Positions 1,717 to 13,063 of a stretch of DNA of 13,063 nt are shown in pieces (the first letter of the stretch is position 1; each line of letters begins with the position of its first letter). The stretch comes from Anaerolineae bacterium. Its GTDB lineage: Bacteria; Chloroflexota; Anaerolineae; 4572-78; J111. The notes under the pieces were generated by a model. That model worked only from the letters and a program-made list of their open reading frames with translations, was not told the DNA's origin and did no database searches. The DNA is taken from contig JAGRCC010001013.1 of NCBI GenBank assembly GCA_020433785.1, positions 1 through 13,063 on the forward strand. The letters are read 5' to 3'. The translations under genes and the position numbers were made by a program.

Positions 1717-1813
1717 ATCGTGTCTGTAGGGTACGACTTTTCCCGTTGATTTGGCTGATTTAATTGATTGAAGTTGATCAATGATTGACCAACTCAAATT
1801 TGACTAGTGTAAA
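1717..1813 (+). promoter_or_regulatory. Operator and promoter region upstream of the TPR membrane gene
   Basis: Several TTGAT units precede a near-perfect palindrome, GTTGATCAAT (1773-1782), G, ATTGACCAAC (1784-1793), with one mismatch between arms. The right arm contains TTGACC (1785-1790), a good -35 hexamer, and TGTAAA (1808-1813) follows at 17-nt spacing as a -10. Positions 1717-1770 align without gaps to 11887-11940 at 40 of 54 bases, and both copies end in ATTGACCA. This gives a likely regulated promoter with a leader of about 285 nt to the start at 2106. The binding protein is unknown; either XRE protein of the window is a candidate. Confidence 0.5.
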
Positions 1814-2105: not shown

Positions 2106-3635
2106 ATGACGGACGAATACATTGATCAAAAAGCGGGTAATCGGGCTACTCAGGTGGGGAAAGTAGGCCGAGACCTGATTATCTATAACCTTAAAATCCC
2201 TTGGTTATGGCTTTTAGGGGGTAGCCTGCTGCTGGGGTTGGCCTTTCTTGGCTGGCTTTACGAGCCTGATCTGTACCATTGGTATCGGTATCGTGCTGCC
2301 GACAATGAACTTCTTATAATGATTGCCGATTTCCAAGATAACGGTATCCCCCATTATGACGTCGCCAATAACATTGAAAAATCTTTACAACAAGAGATGG
2401 CAGAATACGATCTACCAAATGTTAAATTGGTTCGGATTAATCATACGTTCACAGACTCTGAAATCGAGCGGGTGAAGCGCTGGGGCGACAGCTACAATGC
2501 CACGTTATTCATTTGGGGACACTACGATGATGCCGGGATGTATCCCCAGTTTCTTGTTTTAAAGTCGGAAATGGTAGAGGTATTACCGGGGAAGCCGACT
2601 GCAAGATGGGATAATTTAGGCGCGCCGCAGGCCAGTTTTCCCCAGTACGTCAATCACGACTTACCGGTCCAAATGACCTACTTAACCCAATTTACCCTGG
2701 GCCAAATCTTCCATTTGAACCAAGATTATGCCCAGGCCCTGAAACTTTTCGAAGGCGCTCTTAAGTCAGCCGGTAGTTTAGCCGACGAAAACGCACTGCC
2801 ACCCCAAAATTTAGCGATTGTTCACCTGTACACGGGGTATATTCATCTCATAAAAAATGATCTTGACCAAGCTTTGGCCGACTACAATGAGGCCGCTCGC
2901 TTAGACTCAGAAAATGCCGATGCGTTTAATAATCGAGGGGTGGTCGAGGCTAATCGGGGTGAATTGAAAGCCGCCATTACCGATTATACTCAGGCAATTA
3001 AATTAGACGCTGATCACACTCAAGCCTACTACAACCGCGCCCTGGCCCAGTATCGCCTTCAGGAATTTGCTAAAGCGATTGCCGACTTTACCCAAGCCAT
3101 TAAATTGGGTCGAACCGATGCCCAAATCTACCTTGATCGGGGGATTGCCTATTATTATGCGGGCAACTTTAAGGCGGCTCGCGACGATTTTTCGCAAGTA
3201 ATCACATTAGATAAATCCAATCCGCATGCGTACTATGACCGGGGCTTGACTTACCACCGTCTCGGCGAATTCAATACAGCGATCGGCGATTTTAAACAGG
3301 CAATAACCTTAAACCCGGATTTTGCCGACGCCTATAACTCTCTCTGCTGGACGTCCAGTCTGCTGGGCCAGGCTGAAGCAGGGATGAGCGCGTGCGAACA
3401 AGCCGTTAAACTGGCCCCCCAGGAAGGCATCTTTCGGGATAGTCGGGGGCTGGCTCGGGCCTTGGTCGGCGATATCGCGGGAGCCATTGACGATTTCACG
3501 TTCTTTGTAGGATGGTCAAAAAAGCAAAGTGGGTACGAGCAAGAACGTTCAGAACGAGCAACTTGGATTGCTGAATTAGAAGCCGGTAAAAATCCCTTTA
3601 ATTCGGCAAGTTTACAAAAACTTGCCATGGAATAA
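2106..3635 (+). CDS. Membrane protein: QVG motif, TM helix, FlgO/TolB-like sensor domain, TPR array
   Basis: This is a 509-aa protein. Residues 6-28 form a short polar glycine-containing segment with core ATQVGKVGRD, resembling RHIM/PP-type amyloid signalling motifs. Residues about 31-52 are one transmembrane helix, so the motif should face the cytoplasm. Residues about 67-195 look like the FlgO/TolB-type domain often found before TPRs (LLIMIADF strand, then ATLFIWGHYD). From about 195 to 470 there are roughly seven TPRs with NRG..Y...G....AI.D...AI.L repeats, a protein-interaction surface predicted outside the membrane. The rest of the CHAT protein (4230-6779) after its membrane helix has the same architecture. 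The start has GAGGA 5 nt upstream. It is the first gene of the rightward cluster, 51 nt before the next CDS. No enzymatic motif is present. Function is inferred as sensing and scaffolding. Confidence 0.85.
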   Translation: MTDEYIDQKAGNRATQVGKVGRDLIIYNLKIPWLWLLGGSLLLGLAFLGWLYEPDLYHWYRYRAADNELLIMIADFQDNGIPHYDVANNIEKSLQQEMAEYDLPNVKLVRINHTFTDSEIERVKRWGDSYNATLFIWGHYDDAGMYPQFLVLKSEMVEVLPGKPTARWDNLGAPQASFPQYVNHDLPVQMTYLTQFTLGQIFHLNQDYAQALKLFEGALKSAGSLADENALPPQNLAIVHLYTGYIHLIKNDLDQALADYNEAARLDSENADAFNNRGVVEANRGELKAAITDYTQAIKLDADHTQAYYNRALAQYRLQEFAKAIADFTQAIKLGRTDAQIYLDRGIAYYYAGNFKAARDDFSQVITLDKSNPHAYYDRGLTYHRLGEFNTAIGDFKQAITLNPDFADAYNSLCWTSSLLGQAEAGMSACEQAVKLAPQEGIFRDSRGLARALVGDIAGAIDDFTFFVGWSKKQSGYEQERSERATWIAELEAGKNPFNSASLQKLAME

Positions 3636-3686: not shown

Positions 3687-3977
3687 ATGACTCAAGCGTC
3701 ACCATCTAACCTAATCCCATTTTTAGAAGTGCTTGATACCGATTACATCGAAAAGGATCAATTTATCGAATATCTGGCGTCGTTTGATGTCGCAGATATC
3801 CAGGCGATCCAGGCCTTGTTGCGAATGGCCTATCGGACCAAGATGGTCATCGAGGGCGAAGACCTGGATCCGTCCCAAGACTGGGGCCCTGGTCGCCCCA
3901 TCGGCCTGGGCAGACCCGGCCCTTCCGGGCCTGGCGGCCAAAGCGGGCCCAGAAGGCCAGGTGGTCGGCGAAGATGA
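3687..3977 (+). CDS. Hypothetical 96-aa protein, acidic helical N-terminus and Gly/Pro/Arg tail
   Basis: The ATG at 3687 is preferred over 3669 because AAAGGAG lies 6 nt before it. Residues about 8-55 are acidic and amphipathic, predicted helical (LEVLDTDYIEKDQFIEYLAS, then DIQAIQALLRMAY). Residues about 66-96 are low-complexity Gly, Pro and Arg (for example GRPGPSGPGG and PRRPGGRRR), like a short disordered RG/collagen-like tail. There is no membrane segment or cysteine. It lies between the TPR membrane gene and the CHAT gene on the same strand, and could be an adaptor or an interaction partner of one of them. That is only a positional inference, and I do not recognise the family. A frameshift at the GC-rich tail is possible but not shown. 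Confidence 0.65.
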   Translation: MTQASPSNLIPFLEVLDTDYIEKDQFIEYLASFDVADIQAIQALLRMAYRTKMVIEGEDLDPSQDWGPGRPIGLGRPGPSGPGGQSGPRRPGGRRR

Positions 3978-4171
3978 CAGGGTCGCACTTAAAATTAGGC
4001 TTAAAACGCAGATCAAGCCCTCAGCCGACTCTTGCTCTTGATTAACGGGGCCTGGTTGAGGAGACAATCCATTCCGTTTCAGTCTCAAATTGATCCCTAC
4101 GGCGCTTTGAGTTTGCCTGAAATTTTTGCTTTTGTTGTTAACGACAGACTCGTAGGATGAGTTGTAAATGA

Positions 4172-4189
4172 ACCCGCATTGGTGCGGGT
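4172..4189. repeat. Small dyad (ACCCGCA/TGCGGGT) upstream of the CHAT gene
   Basis: A perfect 7-bp stem (4172-4178 with 4183-4189) and a 4-nt loop lie about 40 nt before the preferred CHAT start. They fall inside a 7-codon ATG frame (4168-4191). On the minus strand the flanks read GTTTA before and TTCATTTAC after the stem, which resembles the layout of type I-E CRISPR repeats. Only one copy exists, so no array is called. It could modulate translation of the CHAT gene. The 252-nt gap around it (3978-4229) shows nothing else I can name. Confidence 0.4.
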
Positions 4190-4229
4190 AAACGATCCAC
4201 CTTCAGCATGGAAGAAAGGAACCCCGATA

Positions 4230-6779
4230 GTGCGCCATGCTAACCTTGAGATCCGGATTCTCGACCTTACCCCGGAAGGCTATCCGGTCGAGATCACGTT
4301 TGACGGCGAACAGAGATTCCCCCGTGGTTATCTCCAGCTGGATATCGTGCCCTGGATACCGAGCGCCTCCCCTATAACCGACGGTGAGCGGCTGTTCAAT
4401 CGGCTGCTGGCCGATGACCGGCTCAAGACGGCCTGGGCCGCAGCCCGGGGGCAAAGCCCTCGACGCCGCATTCGCTTGTGGATCGATGCCGCCGCGCCCG
4501 GACTGCATACTATTCCCTGGGAACTTTTGCGCGACGCCGGCCCGGGTCTCATGCCCCAAACCCTGGCCGCCGATATCGACACCCCGTTCTCACGTTATCT
4601 GGCCGATCCGCAGCGACCTGATACCTCCATCGTCGACCGGCCCATCAAACTCCTGGTGGCTCTCGCCAACCCGGCTAACCTGACCGATTATAATCTGCCC
4701 CCGCTCGATATCGAGACTGAGCGCCAGTTAATAATCCAGGCGGTTTCCGGTTTGGGCAACGATCAGCTCGGCATTAAATTTTTAAAGCCGCCGGTGACCC
4801 TATCGGCCCTGGAAGACGAGCTAAAGCACGGTTGTCATTTGCTGCATATTGTGGGACATGGCCGGTTTCATCCACAGCGAAAAGAGGCGGTTCTCTTTCT
4901 AGCCAACGATGATAATCAGGTTGAGCGGGTTAGCGCAGCCGAGTTAGCCGAACTGGTGGCCCGGCAGGCCGAGTCGCCGCGGCTGGTCTTTTTGGCCGCT
5001 TGCCAAACCGCCACCCGCAGCCCGGCTGAAGCCTTCCGTGGCTTTGCTCCCCGATTGATCGCCGCCGGGGTGCCGGCTGTCGTGGCCATGCAGGATATCG
5101 TGCCTATCGACGCTACCCGAGAATTTACCCGCACCTTCTATAGGCGGCTTCTCCATCACGGTCAGGTCGATCTGGCGGCTAACGAAGGCCGGTCGGCGCT
5201 GCTGGCCGGACGGGACGATAGCTGGGCGGTGCCGGTGCTCTACTCCAGGGTGCCGGATGGGGTTATTATGAAGCCGGCGCCCACGGTGTGGGAGAGGTTT
5301 CTTCAGTTCCCCATTGTCACCAGAATACTGGCGGTAGCTAGTGTGTTGGTTGGTGTGGTGTCGGTTATTGCTATGCTAGTGGGGTTATTTGTCGATATTC
5401 AGGCTTTTACCCCAACTCCAACCGCTACGGCTACCCCAATCCGGCCGATGTCAGACAAAGGGTTTTATATCGCTGTCGCCCAGTTTGCCCCAGGCAAGGG
5501 GGTGGTGCAAAGTCAGGCTTTTCAACGTGACAGCAAAGAATTGAGCGAATGGCTCTTCAATGCCGTCGAAAAAATAAACGAGAAATTGCCTTATTCGCTG
5601 CGCACAGACGAAGCCCGGGGGCCGGATCTAATCGGAATCGTCAATAGTGACAATTTGGCGGAGGTTATGAAAAAACATAACCCCACTATTCTGGTTTACG
5701 GGGTAATTAACGTCGGTCATGAGGGTTATGAAGTCCAGCCAGAATTCAGTATTGCAGAAGAGGGTTATCTTTATGCCCCTGAAATAACGGGGCCTAACCG
5801 CTTGGGCCAGCCTGTGCCTTTTGAGCTACCTTTGGGTGACCCCGGCACATTGTTTGGTCTTAACCAAAAACTAGATGCTCGCGTAGAAGCATTACAATAT
5901 CTTATCTTGGGGTTGGCTGAATTATACGCTCCTGACGACGCTGACCTGCTGAATAACTCAGCCTATGAGAAGTTTAAACGGGCTACCACCGTTGAGAATT
6001 GGCAGCCGGCAGAGGGGCAGGAGGTCGTTTATCTGTTGATGGGTGCGGCCAAATTGCGTGCTGCCACCGTTCCTAACACCACCCTAACGGATCGTGACAA
6101 GGCCTTAATTGACGCTTCGGACGCTTTCACTGAGGCTTATCGACTAAATCCGGATTATGCCCGCAGTTATCTGGGACTCGGAGGCGTCGCACTTGAACGG
6201 GCCAAGGTATTCAATTCTACAGGAAAACTCATTGGAATAGATTCAATTAAGCTGGCTGAGGCCAGCGATTGGTATTCAAACAGTCTAAGGGCTTTGGATA
6301 ATCCTGTACAAGCTTATGTATCAATTAAGGCAACCTATGGTCAGGGTCAAGTTCATCTGGCCGGCTATACAGCCCATTTACCCGGTTGGTCTGCGTCTGA
6401 GGCTCAAGACTTCTTTACTCAAATTACCAGGAAATATATTAATAAAAACCCGCCACCTGAGATAGCTTGGTTCGTCGGCAACGCTCACGGTAATTTGGCC
6501 TTGTTGGCCGAATCGGTAGAAAATTGGCAAGTAGTGCTAGATGAGTGCGATCTGGCTAACAAAATTTTCAAGTCACTAACAGACTCTTCCTCTGGCAGAC
6601 GAATAGCCTATTGCCACGATCAAATGGGACTCGCTTATGAAAAGTTGGGACAATTCGACAAGGCTTGCATAGCTTACAATAAAGCCATCCAAAAGGGTCG
6701 CGAGGTCGGACTTTCAGAAAATGAACTGGACCAATGGGAGATGTCACTTAATAGGTTAAATCAGAAAGGAGCATGCTAA
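4230..6779 (+). CDS. CHAT (caspase-like) protease fused to TM helix, sensor domain and TPR region
   Basis: With the GTG start at 4230 the protein has 849 residues. The start is chosen for GAAAGGA 9 nt upstream and because RHANLEIRILDLTPEGYPVE is the usual opening of CHAT proteins. A TTG at 4179 would add 17 residues but has no ribosome site. The CHAT domain (about 40-360) shows IPWELL, the catalytic His in LLHIVGHG (H210) and the catalytic Cys in FLAACQTA (C258), so the clan CD dyad is intact. One membrane helix (about 365-390) follows, then a TPTPTATATP linker and a FlgO/TolB-like domain (VAQFAPG about 412, ILVYGVI about 485). TPR-like segments at about 620-660 and 789-825 end the protein. 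The predicted topology puts the protease in the cytoplasm and the sensor outside. CHAT enzymes cleave partner proteins on activation. The substrate here is unknown; the neighbouring proteases are candidates. GC content falls from the CHAT half to the sensor half. Confidence 0.9.
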   Translation: MRHANLEIRILDLTPEGYPVEITFDGEQRFPRGYLQLDIVPWIPSASPITDGERLFNRLLADDRLKTAWAAARGQSPRRRIRLWIDAAAPGLHTIPWELLRDAGPGLMPQTLAADIDTPFSRYLADPQRPDTSIVDRPIKLLVALANPANLTDYNLPPLDIETERQLIIQAVSGLGNDQLGIKFLKPPVTLSALEDELKHGCHLLHIVGHGRFHPQRKEAVLFLANDDNQVERVSAAELAELVARQAESPRLVFLAACQTATRSPAEAFRGFAPRLIAAGVPAVVAMQDIVPIDATREFTRTFYRRLLHHGQVDLAANEGRSALLAGRDDSWAVPVLYSRVPDGVIMKPAPTVWERFLQFPIVTRILAVASVLVGVVSVIAMLVGLFVDIQAFTPTPTATATPIRPMSDKGFYIAVAQFAPGKGVVQSQAFQRDSKELSEWLFNAVEKINEKLPYSLRTDEARGPDLIGIVNSDNLAEVMKKHNPTILVYGVINVGHEGYEVQPEFSIAEEGYLYAPEITGPNRLGQPVPFELPLGDPGTLFGLNQKLDARVEALQYLILGLAELYAPDDADLLNNSAYEKFKRATTVENWQPAEGQEVVYLLMGAAKLRAATVPNTTLTDRDKALIDASDAFTEAYRLNPDYARSYLGLGGVALERAKVFNSTGKLIGIDSIKLAEASDWYSNSLRALDNPVQAYVSIKATYGQGQVHLAGYTAHLPGWSASEAQDFFTQITRKYINKNPPPEIAWFVGNAHGNLALLAESVENWQVVLDECDLANKIFKSLTDSSSGRRIAYCHDQMGLAYEKLGQFDKACIAYNKAIQKGREVGLSENELDQWEMSLNRLNQKGAC

Positions 6780-6780
6780 C

Positions 6781-8457
6781 TTGAACTCTGGCAGCAGCAG
6801 GCCAAAGGCTGGTCTATTAATCGTTTACTTGGTAATTATGATAATGGTCTTTTTCTGTGGCACAGGGATTGGCCTGTTGTTTTCAGGTTGGTGGGCTGAA
6901 ACATCCCGTCCGACCTCAGTAGCCTTTTTTACAGTTACGCCTGGTTCACCTCAAAGTACATTAATGGGAACAACATCTTCCAGCAGCGACCCGGCTGCCG
7001 ATGGATGCGCTCCACCACCGGCTGGTTGGATGGCCTACACGGTCCAGTCTGGTGATACATTGTCAGAATTTACCATACAGTTCCAGATAAGCGAGGGACG
7101 CCTCATGCGGGCAAACTGCCTGACCTCGCCTGACCTACAAGCTGGTCAACAGTTATACCTACCGCCACCGGCCACACCTCAGCCGTGCTTATCCACACCA
7201 CCGGCGGGGTGGGGACCCTACACGATTCAAAGCGGGGACACTTTATCGGCCCTGGCTGCAGAACGAAGTGTCACCGTCGATCATATAAAACAGATCAATT
7301 GCTTAAGCTCAGAGAATCTTGTACAAGGACAACTACTCCACATTCCCATCCTGCCGACACCCACACCGTGCCAAATCTCTCCCCCGGCGAGTTGGGAATC
7401 CTACGCAGTTCAGAGCGGTGATACACTATTTGGTATCGCTTCCGCTCGAGGAACAACTGTTGCCGAGGTAATGCGGGTCAACTGCTTGACTTCTGACTCT
7501 ATTCAAATTCACCAAACTACTCTATACTTGCCTCCGTTGCCTACGCCGACTCCTTCTCCCACCACACCCCCACCAACGCCGTTACCCCCCCCACCGCCAC
7601 CAGCTCCTCAATCTTTCCCAGGTTCAACTATTGGTCAGCCCCCGGGATTAGCTCCCCAGCCGCCTACGGTAGGGGTCATCGATAGTGTATTCGGCCGCCA
7701 GATTGGTTTGCTATCATTAGCCCTTGCATCTGGCTCACCCAACGCACCTGCTAATCCATGTGATAATAAGGAAAAACCTGCCACCGTAGCGCCAGGAGAT
7801 CCTTGGATTGACGCCCGTTCACTCCTTTCAGAACATCGCGTTGAATACGGTGAGCAAGTTTTCTTCTTTGCTTGTGATTTTACTAAACCAGCATTAACGC
7901 CAGAACCAGCATTTGAATTTACCGCTAAAACAATTTGGCGTGACCGTAAAGAGTACCCCACCAACATTCAATTTTACATACCTCCCTATGACTACGAAGG
8001 CGCAGGGTCCGCAGAAGGGGTTATTGTTTGGAGTGCAAGGTGCGATTTGGATGAAGGTGACTATACGCTTGTTGTAGAAGGCCAGCCAGCACAGTCAGCC
8101 GTGTATACCTTCACCTTAGAGGTGGCTAGTAGCCCACAGATATTGGTTGTGCCACCGGCTGCATCAGCAGGAAGTATTTTTGACATCTACTATTGTGGCT
8201 TTAAGGCTAGCGCGAACACCGAGATTAGTGTTGAGCTTTATTACCAAACAGCACGACGCCCTAAAGAACCAATTACAGAAAATAGAGCCATTTGGGGATA
8301 TCTAGCCAGTTGGAAAGTGCCTATCAATCCTAATGGCAAGGCAAAACAAACGCTCCCATCATCGATCGACGATCCTGGTGGCCGTTATTTATTCACTTAT
8401 GATTTTGACAATGATGGCATTCGAGATGGAGAAAAGTCAATGTGGCTTCTCCGCTAA
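6781..8457 (+). CDS. Membrane-anchored protein with three LysM domains
   Basis: The TTG start at 6781 follows the CHAT stop by 1 nt and has AAAGGAG 9 nt upstream, so the two are translationally close and co-transcribed. Residues about 10-38 are a hydrophobic signal-anchor. Three LysM domains follow (about 85-128, 147-189 and 208-251), each with Y.VQSGDTL or Y.IQSGDTL and a late NCL. Each is preceded by a Cys near PP(A)GW, giving one probable disulfide per repeat. LysM binds N-acetylglucosamine polymers such as peptidoglycan. A Pro-rich linker (about 254-285) leads to a 270-residue C-terminal region of beta-sandwich character with a few cysteines, which I do not recognise. The gene probably provides cell-envelope contact for the sensor proteins. 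It is 558 aa and complete. Confidence 0.85.
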   Translation: MNSGSSRPKAGLLIVYLVIMIMVFFCGTGIGLLFSGWWAETSRPTSVAFFTVTPGSPQSTLMGTTSSSSDPAADGCAPPPAGWMAYTVQSGDTLSEFTIQFQISEGRLMRANCLTSPDLQAGQQLYLPPPATPQPCLSTPPAGWGPYTIQSGDTLSALAAERSVTVDHIKQINCLSSENLVQGQLLHIPILPTPTPCQISPPASWESYAVQSGDTLFGIASARGTTVAEVMRVNCLTSDSIQIHQTTLYLPPLPTPTPSPTTPPPTPLPPPPPPAPQSFPGSTIGQPPGLAPQPPTVGVIDSVFGRQIGLLSLALASGSPNAPANPCDNKEKPATVAPGDPWIDARSLLSEHRVEYGEQVFFFACDFTKPALTPEPAFEFTAKTIWRDRKEYPTNIQFYIPPYDYEGAGSAEGVIVWSARCDLDEGDYTLVVEGQPAQSAVYTFTLEVASSPQILVVPPAASAGSIFDIYYCGFKASANTEISVELYYQTARRPKEPITENRAIWGYLASWKVPINPNGKAKQTLPSSIDDPGGRYLFTYDFDNDGIRDGEKSMWLLR

Positions 8458-8478
8458 ATTACGGAAGGAGTAACAAAA

Positions 8479-9846
8479 ATGGCAGTTGATGATCAAAGAA
8501 AAGAACAATTTTTGAACCAGCCGGACGATAATACTAGAAATTTGTATATCGGCCACATTGACCTGGTCAAAGGTAAAGTTAATGGGACGCTTGAGGCTAA
8601 TTTTGCCGGCGAAATCTTGCTCTATGGTCATCCCGAGGATGATATTTTTGTGGTCGAGCAACTACGGCGTCTAGCTCTCTATGGAAAACTACAAGAGCCT
8701 AATGACTTTCCAGAACTTGGTATAATTTCATTGGCAGGTCCTATCAGTAATACCCAACTGGTGCCAACTCTAGATGACCCTAAAAGCGGTACTGTATTCA
8801 TAGTACATTTGCAACTGCACTATGATGATCTGACGAAGCGCAGAAGAGCTATCAGATACAGCGGAGATGCTGTGTTTCCTAGAGTAGAAGTGTTATTAAC
8901 TAATTTAACCTGGAAACAAGAGGGCGTTCCTGACGAATCAAAAGTGCAGTTGATAGTTGGACTGCCTGCCAGCAACTTAGTTGGACAGGTAAATGGAGAA
9001 GGTCTCATACAATCAGTAACCTTTGATCCATTGTTACTTCCATTCCATTTGGCCGGCACTGGACCTTCAATTAGCAGAAAGCAGCATAATTCATTGGGAG
9101 GATGCCCTGACCCGATTGGAAAATGCGGTCCATGCAACAAAAAAATAACTACCCCAGTACGTCAGCTTCCTCTTAAATTTATCAATATCACCCAAAAAAC
9201 TGCAGAAGAATTGGAGGCGCTTTGCCAGACTCAGATCACTAATGCATGTCGGGTTTGGCGAGATAAAGCTGGCTTAGAGCTAGACATTGACCCCCAAATC
9301 GGAGGCGATGACATTGATGTCATGATTAAGGATAATTATCAGGGTATTCTCACCAGTACCCAGCAGTCAGATCTATATGATAGCGTCCCGCCTTCCGGTA
9401 ATCCTCCTGATTACGTGCCCATCTATTTAGTGACTGGAATGAGGGACTCTGACGGACAGAATGTTCAGGGCTTTACTCGGAATTGTGGTCAAGCCAGTGC
9501 TTTTTCTTTACTGCGGGTTGGTAGGAGTGGTCGTAATCCAATAGAGAACTCGTTACAAACAAATCCATTCCTATTAGCCCATGAAGTGGGGCACATTTTA
9601 GGTATTAGCCACCCCGGAGACTCAACCCCTGAGTATTTTCCTGACCAGCACGGGTTCGTGGATAGTCACCTGGGGGCGGCCGGTTCCGTAATGCAGATGC
9701 AAGATCCTAACGTAAACATAAATACATGTGAGAATTTTGAAATCTTTGACAAGTGGCCGGGCCCCACTACAATTAATATCTTTGTTCCCCTCAATGCCAT
9801 TTGTTTAGCAGATCCATCGCAAAATGATTGCTTCCGCCCTGATTGA
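8479..9846 (+). CDS. Metzincin-type zinc metalloprotease (455 aa)
   Basis: The catalytic motif AHEVGHILGISH gives HExxHxxGxxH with zinc ligands H368, H372 and H378 and general base E369. The Met-turn candidate is GSVMQM (M405), so the metzincin signature is complete. The region before it (ACRVWRDKAGLELDI, then VPIYLV) fits the upper subdomain of this fold. The first 230 residues have no family I recognise and end in a Cys cluster, C209, C216 and C219, that could hold a metal or a disulfide, or act as a latency element. No signal peptide or membrane helix is present, unusual for a metzincin, so export by the general pathway is unlikely. GGAAGGAG lies 8 nt before the ATG. The gene starts 21 nt after the LysM gene and is probably in the same operon. 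Confidence 0.85.
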   Translation: MAVDDQRKEQFLNQPDDNTRNLYIGHIDLVKGKVNGTLEANFAGEILLYGHPEDDIFVVEQLRRLALYGKLQEPNDFPELGIISLAGPISNTQLVPTLDDPKSGTVFIVHLQLHYDDLTKRRRAIRYSGDAVFPRVEVLLTNLTWKQEGVPDESKVQLIVGLPASNLVGQVNGEGLIQSVTFDPLLLPFHLAGTGPSISRKQHNSLGGCPDPIGKCGPCNKKITTPVRQLPLKFINITQKTAEELEALCQTQITNACRVWRDKAGLELDIDPQIGGDDIDVMIKDNYQGILTSTQQSDLYDSVPPSGNPPDYVPIYLVTGMRDSDGQNVQGFTRNCGQASAFSLLRVGRSGRNPIENSLQTNPFLLAHEVGHILGISHPGDSTPEYFPDQHGFVDSHLGAAGSVMQMQDPNVNINTCENFEIFDKWPGPTTINIFVPLNAICLADPSQNDCFRPD

Positions 9847-9964
9847 TAAGAGTCCCAGACAGACCGTGTTTAACCAACTTCTGGCATTGCTAATCCTAAC
9901 AACGGGTTTGGGGATACTCAAATTAAATGCAGCTTAGTTTTCAGCGTAAGGGGTAAAGCAAATC

Positions 9965-11404
9965 ATGTCCACACACCAACTCCACTTCAACGGCCTCAAC
10001 GGCGCCACCGGCGACTACCTCCTGCCGGCCATGACCCCCCGGCAGATCTCAGATATCGCGCGGGGCGAACCGCAGGATGCCGACCACTTGCGCGAACTTA
10101 AGTGGTGGTTTCAGCGGGTGAGCCAAGCCCATTTGGGGCCTAAAGAAGGGGTCGATCCTAAAAACCTGGCCGAAAGCGGGTGGGGCGTCATTTTTAGCCA
10201 TGACGCCGATCCTGCGGTTCGGGAGGCGTTGGGTGAACTGTTGGCGCACCGGCGGGCGCAGGCGGCGCAAAAGCAAGAGCATTACTATCAGGAGTACACC
10301 GGGGTCAAGGCCTACCGGCCGGACGAGTCAAAACCGAAATTCCTGGCTCGCCACGGCATCGGCCCCGGTCCGGCCGATCCGGATAAAGTGCCGTACTACC
10401 TGCTCATCGTGGGCAATCCGGAGGCCATTCCTTACCGCTTCCAATATCAGCTCGATGTGCAGTATGCCGTGGGGCGCATTCACTTCGATACCCCGGACGA
10501 GTATGCCAACTATGCCCGCAGTGTAGTCGAGGCCGAGACCAAGCCTGTGCCGCGGCCTCGACAGGCGGCTTTCTTCGGCGTCCGCAATCCCGACGACCGG
10601 GCGACCGGCCTGAGCGCCGAGCACCTGGTCAAGCCCCTGGCTGAAACCCTGGCCGATCACCACCCTGACTGGACAGTCCCGGCCCACTTGGCCGAGGCCG
10701 CGACCAAGGCGCGCCTGACCCAACTCTTGGGCGGCGATCAGACGCCGGCGCTGCTGTTTACCGCCAGCCACGGTATGGGCTTTCCCAACGGCGATCCGCG
10801 CCAACTGCCCCACCAGGGGGCGCTGCTGTGCCAGGACTGGCCCGGCCCTAACGCCTGGCGTCAGGCCATTCGCCCGGACCATTATTTCGCGGCCGATGAT
10901 GTCGGCGACGACGCTGATTTACTGGGTCTTTTGGCCTTTCATTTTGCCTGCTATGGGGCCGGCACACCCCGCTTGGACGACTTTGCCCACCAGGCCTTTC
11001 GGGAGCGGGTGGCTGTCGCCCCCCACGCTTTTGTCGCTCGCCTGCCGCAGCGGCTGCTGAGCCATCCCCACGGGGGTGCTCTGGCCGTGGTCGGTCACGT
11101 CGAACGGGCCTGGGGCTACTCTTTTTTATGGCCGCGAGCCGGGCGACAGTTGCAGGTCTTTGAAGCCGCCCTGGAGCGACTGCTAGACGGTCACCCCATC
11201 GGCTCGGCTATGGAATATTTCAACCAGCGTTACGCCGAACTTTCGTCTGACTTAAGCGTCGAATTAGAAGAGATCGACTATGGCAAAACGCCGGATGAGC
11301 TGGCTTTGTCGGGGATGTGGACGGCCAATAATGATGCTCGCAGCTACGTCATCATCGGCGACCCGGCGGTGAGGCTGATAGCGGCTGAGACAGGAGCCGG
11401 CTAA
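9965..11404 (+). CDS. C25 (gingipain)-like clan CD cysteine protease
   Basis: This is a 479-aa protein without a signal peptide. The segment [20 protein letters not shown] followed by VGRI and a later [10 protein letters not shown] matches the upper part of peptidase C25 domains. The dyad is H269 in FTASHGMGF and C329 in [12 protein letters not shown], spaced 60 residues apart as in caspase-fold enzymes. The end ([13 protein letters not shown]) is also typical of C25-like and CHAT-related domains. It is GC-rich and compositionally unlike the LysM and metzincin genes just upstream, which suggests a separate acquisition. The ATG at 9965 has AAGGGG about 11 nt upstream. A 118-nt gap separates it from the metzincin gene. 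It could be a target or a partner of the CHAT protease. Specificity is unknown. Confidence 0.8.
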
Positions 11405-11453
11405 GATTGAACGGTCGGCATAAAAATATATTTTTCGTTAGGTCTGGGCCAAG

Positions 11454-11798
11454 TTAATCTTCAACTTCGCCCATGATGAGGAAGGACAAGGCTCTGATTT
11501 CGGTGTTGCCGTTCGTGTTCCAATCGACGGTCAGATACTTGAGGTTGGGAGCCCCATCGGTGAAGTTGATAATCCCCAGGTCTTTGTCGCCGGGAGTGGC
11601 TTCATCACTCACGCGCACCTGGTGGATGGTGATCTTTTTCGTGGGCGGTTCCGTGAAAGCGCCTTGGCCGGTTTGGTTCAAATCAACGCCGTTAGCATCA
11701 CCCGCCACCATAAAGGGGTTAAAGAGGATGACCGCGTTGCCATTTATCTGAAAGCCTTGTTTCGGGATTAAAACGCCGGTTAAAATTTTGGTTGCCAT
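11454..11798 (-). CDS. Small conserved protein (114 aa), full-length paralog of the 1-199 gene
   Basis: The start at 11798 (MATKILTGVLIPKQGFQING) has AAAGGA 8 nt upstream and is identical in position to the paralog start. An ATG eight codons earlier lacks a ribosome site. The protein is 114 residues, mostly predicted beta-strand, with a conserved VAGDANGVDLNQTG stretch, TKKITIHQVRV, and an acidic end (GEVED). It has no cysteine, signal peptide or membrane helix. It is convergent with the C25-like gene, with stops 49 nt apart, and divergent from the XRE/QVG gene. Having two copies about 11 kb apart in the same orientation suggests a duplicated accessory protein belonging to this locus. I do not recognise the family. 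Confidence 0.8.
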   Translation of the reverse strand: MATKILTGVLIPKQGFQINGNAVILFNPFMVAGDANGVDLNQTGQGAFTEPPTKKITIHQVRVSDEATPGDKDLGIINFTDGAPNLKYLTVDWNTNGNTEIRALSFLIMGEVED

Positions 11799-11886
11799 TT
11801 TTGAAATCCTTTCATTGATCATGACTTCGGTTCAGACTTTGAAGATAACGGGTATATCAGAGCTAAAGACTTAGTATTGCTATTGG

Positions 11887-11979
11887 ATCGTGTCTACATC
11901 ATAAAACTTTTTCTGTTGATTTGGGTGATGGAATTGATCAATAGTGCCGATTGACCAGAGTAGCTAAAGATATTCTATT
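11887..11979 (+). promoter_or_regulatory. Operator and promoter region upstream of the XRE/QVG gene
   Basis: Positions 11887-11940 match 1717-1770 at 40 of 54 bases without gaps. TTGATCAAT (11934-11942) and ATTGACCA (11950-11957) then repeat the dyad halves with a longer spacer. TTGACC (11951-11956) with TCTATT (11974-11979) at 17 nt is a plausible promoter, giving a leader of about 78 nt. It probably answers to the same regulator as the promoter at 1717-1813. Confidence 0.5.
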
Positions 11980-12063: not shown

Positions 12064-12387
12064 ATGGCTGATACCGAATTAAAAAAGAAATTTAAATATT
12101 ATCTAACCCGCAGTCATTATGACTCTCAGGAAGAATTGGCGGGGTTGTTAAATGTGGCTCCCAGCACACTGAGCAAGTGGCTTTCCGGTGCTAATCCCTG
12201 GGACACCGGACGGCTCAGCCGGGCCTGTGAGTTGTTGGAACTCAACGAGAACGAAACGCGAGAACTGTTTCAATTGGCTAATCTTACCGGAGAAAAAACG
12301 GAGTTAGGCGATGCGACTATAAACCAAACCGCCGGAGACAATGCCAAACAAGTTGGCCAGATTTTTGGCGATGTTACCTTCAACTGA
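12064..12387 (+). CDS. XRE-type HTH protein with C-terminal QVG motif (107 aa)
   Basis: Residues about 20-70 form an XRE-type helix-turn-helix (QEELAGLLNVAPSTLSKWLS, then RLSRACELLELNENE). After a short linker the last 22 residues (86-107) carry a glycine/asparagine-rich tail with core AKQVGQIFGD ending in VTFN. Nine of 21 aligned positions are identical to residues 6-26 of the TPR membrane protein (2106-3635). Such tails in Chloroflexota and other bacteria resemble amyloid-forming RHIM/PP-like motifs that mediate homotypic contacts; this assignment is by eye. The start has AGGAG 9 nt upstream. It could bind the dyads at 1773-1793 and 11935-11957 as an autoregulator. A long hairpin follows the stop. 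Confidence 0.8.
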   Translation: MADTELKKKFKYYLTRSHYDSQEELAGLLNVAPSTLSKWLSGANPWDTGRLSRACELLELNENETRELFQLANLTGEKTELGDATINQTAGDNAKQVGQIFGDVTFN

Positions 12388-12596: not shown

Positions 12597-12803
12597 ATGA
12601 ACATATCTAGTGTATCCGCCGCCGGTTATGGCGGTGGGCAAATGGCAACCAGTCTCGCAGCCAGCGCCAGTCAAGTCAAGAATCTCCAGGTTCAAGACGA
12701 GATAGCGGTCTCGGTCATCCGCCAGGTGCAGGATCAGCAAAAACAGATGGCTGAAAGTCTGGTCAAAATGATGGATCAAAGTACAGTTGATGTGTATGCT
12801 TAA
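12597..12803 (+). CDS. YjfB-family putative motility protein (68 aa)
   Basis: The 68-residue length, the MNISS opening, and the pattern VQDEIAVSVIRQVQDQQKQM followed by AESLVKMMD match the small YjfB family (putative motility protein), in which a central VS-V-K/R helix with glutamines precedes a leucine-rich helix. The biochemical role of the family is not known. ACGGAGGT lies 5 nt before the ATG. A sigma-28-like promoter directly upstream and a strong terminator directly downstream make it a single-gene transcription unit, separate from the protease cluster. Its presence suggests the host has, or descends from, a flagellated lineage; no other motility gene is in the window. Confidence 0.75.
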   Translation: MNISSVSAAGYGGGQMATSLAASASQVKNLQVQDEIAVSVIRQVQDQQKQMAESLVKMMDQSTVDVYA

Positions 12804-12825
12804 TCCATCATAACTTTCTCTCTCG

Positions 12826-12865
12826 AAAAAAGGCCCGTGATTTGCGTAAATCACGGGCCTTTTTT
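12826..12865. terminator. Strong bidirectional intrinsic terminator
   Basis: A perfect 18-bp stem (12826-12843 with 12848-12865) has a 4-nt GCGT loop, a GC-rich core GGCCCGTGA and A/T runs on both flanks. It serves the YjfB gene (plus) and the converging SnoaL-like gene (minus), whose stop codon directly abuts the stem at 12866. Confidence 0.92.
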
Positions 12866-13063
12866 CTACACCGGCACTGAATTGCCTTCCTCTTGACCGG
12901 GGGTGGGCAGAGAAACGTGAGACTGGACCAGGAGCCATTCGTCGCCTCGGTGTTCCAGAACAGCGGTCATCCGGAAAGGAAACGATATCGCCTGGCCGCC
13001 GACCTGACCTTGGCCCAAGCCCTCCGCCGAGACCCAGGCTACCGGCCCCGCCGCTGAAACTTG
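12866..13063 (-). CDS. SnoaL/NTF2-like domain protein, C-terminal part
   Basis: The minus-strand frame is open from the window edge to TAG at 12868-12866, giving the last 65 residues. The segment VAWVSAEG, then FPFRMTAVLEHRGDEWLLVQ and SHVSLPTP is the terminal beta-hairpin pattern of SnoaL_3/NTF2-like (DUF4440-type) proteins: R.T.VL...G.W...Q.H.S. These small cone-shaped domains bind ligands or act as isomerases; the ligand cannot be told from this fragment. The N-terminal half lies outside the window. It converges on the YjfB gene and shares its terminator. Confidence 0.7.
   Translation of the reverse strand, partial: QVSAAGPVAWVSAEGLGQGQVGGQAISFPFRMTAVLEHRGDEWLLVQSHVSLPTPGQEEGNSVPV

Follow-up and report, generated by a model that had tools for sequence, protein, structure and literature searches.

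The window, i.e., the whole stretch of 13,063 nucleotides analyzed here, includes two plus-strand genes at some distance from each other. The first (2106..3635) codes for a 509-amino-acid protein with TPR repeats (from here on, the TPR protein), as determined from the ORF list, the Pfam matches to TPRs and an AF2 model. The second (12064..12387) codes for a 107-amino-acid XRE-type HTH protein with a motif at its C-terminus (the XRE protein). A gap of 8,428 bases separates the end of the TPR gene (3635) from the start of the XRE gene (12064). The plus-strand genes identified within this interval using the ORF list and Pfam (3687..11404) are a small ORF starting at 3687, followed by those coding for a CHAT protein that, by eye, includes a TM segment (4179-6779), a LysM protein (starting at 6781), a weakly matching metzincin-like protein (starting at 8479) and a C25-family peptidase-like protein (9965-11404). 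A small ORF of 122 amino acids is located on the minus strand at 11454-11822.

The small minus-strand gene is present in two copies that flank the cluster, one of them cut (2-199) and the other at 11454-11822. The two copies share 87% identity over 207 nucleotides (11-217 vs. 11610-11816), and the gene has no match in Pfam, NCBIfam or PADLOC. A 101-nucleotide repeat (73%; 248-348 and 796-896) is located upstream of two small minus-strand ORFs. A 105-amino-acid minus-strand ORF at 517-834, with an alternative frame at 557-754, includes the sequence GPTPTAT and a cysteine-containing tail, and its product, judged by eye, may be a small peptide that is secreted or modified. There are also two inverted repeats. 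The one at 434-516 (28 nucleotides, 79% complementary) has AGGTGACAGTCAC in its arms, and the one at 12825-12866 is perfect (19 bp, 4-nucleotide loop), looks like a terminator by eye and comes after a YjfB-like gene (12597-12803; 22.8 bits, below the Pfam cut-off).

The TPR protein consists, from the N- to the C-terminus, of the motif, a TM helix, an alpha/beta domain and the TPR repeats. The receptor-side motif, delimited by alignment and profiles, encompasses residues 6-28 (2121..2189, plus strand), within a region (residues 1-30) where the pLDDT is below 50. The TM segment, recognized by eye, spans residues 31-52 (2196..2261, plus strand) and the alpha/beta domain, defined by the AF2 model and a Nostoc relative, spans residues 69-151 (2310..2558, plus strand). 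The model, which was based on four sequences, has a mean pLDDT of 75.8 and shows a long helix (residues 32-62) that takes in the TM segment, then the alpha/beta domain and then a TPR solenoid. TPR-repeat proteins were the top rows when the model was compared to the PDB with Foldseek. The alpha/beta domain had no Pfam match and the PDB fold search did not identify it. The protein matched 23 Pfam families, which are TPR and other helical-repeat models, and there was no NTPase domain among them. Following the positive-inside rule, the N-terminus of the protein is probably cytoplasmic.

Relatives of the TPR protein differ at the N-terminus. A scan of genome contigs with two peptide patterns returned a single locus, L001 from Nostoc, where a gene (9659-11608) codes for a protein with the same alpha/beta and TPR parts (42% over residues 64-199 of the TPR protein). 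The motif and TM segment are replaced in this protein by another N-terminal segment, which is HNH-like by eye and has no Pfam match to back this name. A profile of the N-terminal part of the TPR protein found matches in 2 of 339 cyanobacterial genomes, this Nostoc and G196, and the relative in G196, in which a TM segment was recognized by eye, lacks the motif. No relative of this part was found in viral contigs. Given the HNH-like segment in one relative and the motif-free N-terminus in the other, the N-terminal slot looks exchangeable, and it may be analogous to the effector/adaptor slots of conflict proteins.

The XRE protein matched the Pfam models HTH_31 (27.8 bits) and HTH_3 (24.5 bits), both over the cut-off, and its AF2 model shows the HTH followed by a tail (residues 76-107) with pLDDT below 50. 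The partner-side motif, delimited by alignment and profiles, consists of residues 86-107 (12319..12384, plus strand). Residues 6-28 of the TPR protein and 86-107 of the XRE protein can be aligned locally without gaps, with 10 of 22 columns identical and a BLOSUM62 score of 47. The first-pass annotation of this DNA had pointed out a pattern with nine identities shared by both segments. This pattern is real, and the nine identities fall within the 18 columns of the core, from I to D. When the 40-residue ends of 11 window proteins were compared, this pair was at the top of the 220 terminus pairs (score 47, next 34), and when the XRE tail was shuffled 20,000 times, 47 was reached against the TPR N-terminus only once. 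The comparison of the whole proteins was less striking than that of the ends (the score was reached by 47 of 5,000 shuffles), and the TPR/XRE pair (47) came second to TPR/CHAT (58) among 55 pairs of this kind, with 46 and 45 next. A profile of the motifs of the TPR protein and its relatives P0003 and P0004 had XRE as its second match in the 396 ORFs of the window (E 4.8e-4, next 1.0). In the reverse direction, the TPR protein came second in the same set with a profile of the motifs of XRE, P0002 and P0005 (E only 0.089), and again after five cyanobacterial motifs were added to it (E only 0.11).

The two motifs show no similarity in their coding DNA, whose score is equalled by 171 of 1,000 null sequences, and only one of the nine identical residues is encoded by the same codon. 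Therefore, the motif is not the product of a recent DNA duplication, and this origin was discarded. Both motifs have low confidence in the AF2 models, where they are drawn as a helix with no beta structure; such a low-confidence helix in the XRE tail would have no bearing on a beta assembly. Matches to 18 PDB sequences obtained with the profile at E 10, mostly designed or cell-surface proteins plus the ribosomal protein bL9, were taken as chance. Searches of plasmids produced no match with XRE, and none and one (E 10, an aquaporin) with the two motif peptides.

Both motifs are kept in close relatives. XRE and its relative P0002 share 21 of 24 residues in the motif, 4 of 10 in the linker and 65 of 73 in the HTH, and the TPR motif shares 27 of 28 residues with P0003 and 22 of 28 with P0004. 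A protein search with a four-copy motif bait over 170 candidates recovered three proteins at E <=10. Two of them are the bait sources, and the remaining one, P0005 (E 2.9), is a 436-amino-acid Ser/Thr kinase. PD-T4-6 kinase models are the top PADLOC matches of this kinase. The extreme C-terminus of P0005 matched XRE with a score of 97 (19 of 30 columns identical, none of 2,000 shuffles); therefore, an HTH regulator and a kinase carry nearly the same tail. The TPR protein matched the kinase more weakly. While the whole proteins were not significantly similar (772 of 2,000 shuffles), residues 1-60 of the TPR protein against the whole kinase gave 33 of 2,000, the whole TPR protein against the last 40 residues of the kinase gave 26 of 2,000 and the comparison of end against end gave 0 of 2,000. 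The best site for the TPR motif in the kinase is the tail.

Related motifs were also found in neighboring genes of cyanobacteria. In each of three genomes (G001, G307 and G383), such a motif begins an NB-ARC-type gene and another ends the product of the gene directly upstream, which is a CHAT protein in two cases and a small, helical one in the other. A 23-residue single query gave weak matches only, in 4 of 292 genomes, and, of 194 cyanobacterial genomes, one was matched at E 0.1 by a narrow motif profile (A3). The top match of the narrow profile in Nostoc sp. LEGE 12450 (G001) was at residues 4-20 of an NB-ARC-type protein (E 0.06), whose domain score was 22.6 bits, just below the cut-off of 23.5. 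The gene just upstream codes for a CHAT protein (Pfam, 40.9 bits) that ends in a related motif, and the CHAT-side and NB-ARC-side motifs have a score of 60. Ungapped matches to the NB-ARC-side motif were obtained with P0004 (21 columns) and XRE (16 columns), neither of them reached in 3,000 shuffles, and the TPR motif matched it over 17 columns (1 of 3,000). The CHAT-side motif had no direct match to XRE (0.52 of shuffles) or TPR (0.20).

A further profile, A4, was assembled from six motifs, the Nostoc NB-ARC-side motif among them. At E 0.5, some match was present in 79 of 386 cyanobacterial genomes, and only three had matches below 1e-4: G001, which belongs to the training set, G383 (7.6e-11) and G307 (1.3e-10). 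In G383 and G307 a second A4 match (3.8e-5 and 2.2e-6, respectively) was located at the end of the immediately upstream gene. The G307 and G383 receptors scored 24.8 and 26.2 bits, above the NB-ARC cut-off, and the identity between the G307 and Nostoc receptors is 54%. The three receptors constitute one family and, therefore, the three loci are not independent. The partners of this family (L008-L010) are CHAT proteins in Nostoc and G383 and the small helical protein in G307, so that the motif has been retained through a change of partner. The small protein of G307 was named BELL-like because PMC7889193 describes BELL as a small bundle of helices that includes a hydrophobic one; the name is not accompanied by a Pfam model match.

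A profile of the six cyanobacterial motifs alone placed XRE first among the 396 window ORFs (E 7e-4, none of 2,000 shuffles) and, in a set of five proteins, found P0004, the TPR relative (E 1.4e-4); it missed the TPR motif of the window (-0.9 bits, 79 of 2,000 shuffles). The test has only partial independence, since the window motif had served to find the first of the cyanobacterial motifs. Of the two proteins, TPR is the less securely linked, its window motif being missed by this profile. An XRE profile had matches in none of 339 cyanobacterial genomes, a result that shows little since the search had no positive control. A match at L003 was dropped as an internal repeat in a large protein.

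The motif at the C-terminus of the P0005 kinase comes after a BELL-like helical segment homologous to the small protein of G307 (33% over 130 amino acids, E 2e-16 in a single comparison, motif included). A profile based on the kinase tail and the G307 protein had matches in 28 of 386 cyanobacterial genomes, G307 included, with 38 rows, which include G307, a training sequence, and its downstream receptor. Thirty loci were read. Four were left out for having no suitable ORF (L050, L051, L053 and L057) and two for being in the wrong frame (L054 and L062), and another (L063) has no long downstream ORF, so that the counts are based on 24 ORFs and 23 pairs, which are not independent because several loci are related to each other. 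The domains of the downstream genes in the 23 pairs were scanned for G307 only. In 13 of the 23 pairs, G307 included, the small protein ended with a sequence similar to that at the start of the downstream product (<=1 in 500 shuffles). The XRE motif scored 57 and 56 against the small-protein tails of G307 and L039, with none of 400 shuffles reaching either score. Summed over the 24 helical-protein ORFs, the XRE score (748) and the TPR score (640) were above those of all 300 shuffled motifs (maximum 693 and 588, respectively). The places of the best matches did not stand above those of shuffled motifs, either at the tail (XRE 15 of 24, reached by 40 of 300 shuffles; TPR 9 of 24, reached by 132 of 300) or near the start of the downstream ORF (XRE 10 of 23, 28 of 200 shuffles; TPR 6 of 23, 76 of 200). 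Thus, the outcome is mixed for the enrichment of the motif at the termini of paired genes, to which the first-pass annotation had tied its proposal: the summed similarity stands above the shuffles and the count of tail placements does not. Under a looser rule, with no control and with the two wrong frames in, the best match fell within the last 25 residues in 20 of 26 cases for XRE and 12 of 26 for TPR. A second type of cyanobacterial pair was observed at L043, L044, L048, L061 and L067, where the small helical protein has an end of the type KQVGKI...V.F (KMVGKI in L061) and the downstream gene has TQVG, TQIG or NLIG near its start.

The upstream regions of the TPR and XRE genes have a 52-bp element in common. 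Copy 1 (1717..1768) is located 337 bp before the start of the TPR gene and copy 2 (11887..11938) is located 125 bp before that of the XRE gene, and 40 of the 52 positions are identical. This was the best of 90 comparisons of ten intergenic regions (44, next 32), and none of 200 first-order Markov null sets reached 44 (95% level 30, maximum 35). The next-best comparison, between 200-516 and 1450-2105 (32), was likewise above the 95% level. The sequence TTGATCAAT is found at or just past the end of the element in both copies. Upstream of the TPR gene it is directly followed by GATTGACCA (1774..1791, plus strand), and upstream of the XRE gene ATTGATCAAT is followed, after 6 bases, by GATTGACCA (11933..11957, plus strand). 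The spacing differs between the copies and the two 9-mers are out of register. A further TTGATCAAT is present on the minus strand within the codons of the TPR motif (2121..2129), 15 bp after the start. The window has four matches to TTGATCAAT (sites 1774, 2121 and 11933/11934; 0.15 expected) and only two to GATTGACCA (1783 and 11949; 0.07 expected), with the reservation that both words were picked after the alignment had been seen. Neither element was found to include a sigma-70-like promoter. Both copies lie between divergent genes and, therefore, they could also serve the minus-strand neighbors. The element, new in this analysis, links the TPR and XRE genes in a second way that is independent of the motif, and its copies are candidate operators that a common regulator, perhaps XRE, may bind.

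A motif shared by opposite ends of a TPR protein and a DNA-binding protein suggests a connection from a receptor to a gene switch. We hypothesized that a TPR membrane sensor and an XRE regulator are joined by a BASS-like motif and act on the shared element and the protease gene run, a proposal to which we give an even chance of being correct. The homotypic motif would be on the receptor side at the cytoplasmic N-terminus of the TPR protein and on the partner side at the C-terminus of XRE. The extracytoplasmic alpha/beta and TPR part would sense a ligand or the state of the envelope and cluster, and the clustered N-terminal motifs, meeting the XRE tails in the cytoplasm, would nucleate or capture them in a beta-rich assembly. 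Upon assembly, the occupancy by XRE of operators in the element found before both genes would change, and this could modify, in one direction or the other, the expression of the TPR-CHAT-LysM-protease gene run.

Other explanations have to be weighed. The one that survives best, which we consider unlikely and still a serious contender, is that the motifs are real BASS-like motifs and the TPR and XRE proteins are not direct partners but members of a wider network, with the true partner, e.g., a kinase or STAND protein, encoded elsewhere. It is consistent with the presence of nearly the same tail on the P0005 kinase and with the higher score of the XRE motif against this tail (97) than against the TPR motif (47). 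The partners are adjacent in the three cyanobacterial loci, as BASS pairs are, while 8.4 kb and other genes lie between the TPR and XRE genes. However, the profiles single out these two proteins among the 396 window ORFs and their upstream regions share the 52-bp element, which favors the direct pair. Less probable is a non-amyloid homotypic docking, in which a small, defined beta-arch or beta-hairpin complex is formed and no fibrils are templated. The peptides that PMC8086366 (section 13) reports to be amyloid-like are BASS3-type or fungal, outside the TPR/XRE group, as this explanation would allow, but the receptor-N/partner-C placement is common to this motif group and the BASS motifs.

We regard it as quite improbable that the similarity arose by chance in two terminal tails that contain Gly and Gln and have unrelated roles. 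The match is short (18-22 columns), shuffles of the whole proteins reach its score 47 times in 5,000, the reverse profiles place the TPR protein at E 0.089 and 0.11 only, and the window TPR motif is missed by the cyanobacteria-only profile. Nonetheless, the pair is at the top of 220 terminus pairs with 1 of 20,000 shuffles, the motifs are kept in relatives, the TPR-family profile gives XRE an E of 4.8e-4, and P0004 matches the Nostoc NB-ARC-side motif over 21 ungapped columns (0 of 3,000 shuffles).

The RHIM/PP/BASS3-type assignment, for which the Q-V-G of both proteins and the I-Q-V-G of P0004 could speak, is already disfavored and has very little chance of being correct, with no match to Pfam RHIM (PF12721) in any of five group peptides, a Frankia BASS3 peptide used as positive control matching at E 0.0013, and the four motifs scoring within shuffles (0.11-0.93) against two BASS3-type peptides (Frankia and Methanothrix). 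The I-Q-V-G of P0004 presumably fits the RHIM core. Q-V-G alone is no sign of RHIM, and T or K precedes it in the window copies. The Frankia peptide was taken from PMC8086366, section 13. The first-pass annotation had described the motif as putatively amyloid-type, RHIM/PP-like and located at the N-terminus of a receptor and the C-terminus of its partner. The terminal, receptor-N/partner-C location holds, as seen in the cyanobacterial pairs and the kinase tail; the RHIM/PP identity was discarded. With the fungal sigma motif, XRE had a score of 33, above most shuffles (0.011 of 3,000, with P0002 at 0.041 and TPR at 0.38), which was taken as a probable effect of shared Gly/Gln/Asn composition.

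The direct TPR/XRE pairing thus remains the preferred reading. A bolder version of it is an NLR-independent amyloid-type pathway, in which a single-pass membrane TPR sensor templates the assembly of XRE and switches the CHAT and other protease genes. We put it forward tentatively, as somewhat less probable than not. If it is correct, envelope sensing would be linked directly to transcription in a prion-like manner. The locus offers a concrete case, in which a membrane TPR protein and a DNA-binding regulator both bear a BASS-like motif and a kinase encoded elsewhere has nearly the same tail, and, if the reading holds, the templating by such motifs would be a general plug that connects many receptors to many outputs, gene control included.

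Known systems resemble this pair to different extents. RHIM, fungal PP and BASS3 motifs have in common with it the Q-V-G core and the short length, but the TPR/XRE group does not match Pfam RHIM. PMC8195603 describes TRADD-N systems with an ECF-like HTH in which a transcriptional response is proposed as one output of a conflict-type system. The likeness is in this output; those systems use a folded TRADD-N domain, whereas the TPR and XRE proteins carry a short terminal motif, and TRADD-N was not among the Pfam matches of the window proteins. In the literature covered (passages of PMC12261475, PMC8086366, PMC7889193, PMC10907252 and PMC8195603), there was no mention of a motif-bearing XRE regulator or non-NLR TPR membrane protein.

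By its similarities, the TPR/XRE motif is grouped with the other bacterial amyloid-signaling-type (BASS-like) motifs. BASS, the bacterial amyloid signaling sequences of Dyrka et al. 2020 (as cited in PMC7889193, PMC8086366 and PMC12261475), are motifs of 20-40 amino acids that one protein carries at its C-terminus and a second one at its N-terminus, as XRE and TPR do. Kin of the TPR/XRE motif are found on CHAT, small helical BELL-like and NB-ARC-type cyanobacterial proteins, and the kinship to NLR-paired motifs is evident for XRE (E 7e-4 in 396 ORFs, 0 of 2,000 shuffles). In contrast, BASS genes are adjacent or overlapping and the TPR and XRE genes are 8,428 bases apart, the TPR protein is not an NLR receptor with an NB-ARC or NACHT NTPase, and XRE matches HTH models only, instead of being a BELL, CHAT or TIR partner. 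Because of these three differences, TPR/XRE was not filed as a canonical BASS pair; it is a predicted pairing that would work like BASS pairs, yet with a membrane TPR protein and a DNA-binding regulator at its two ends.
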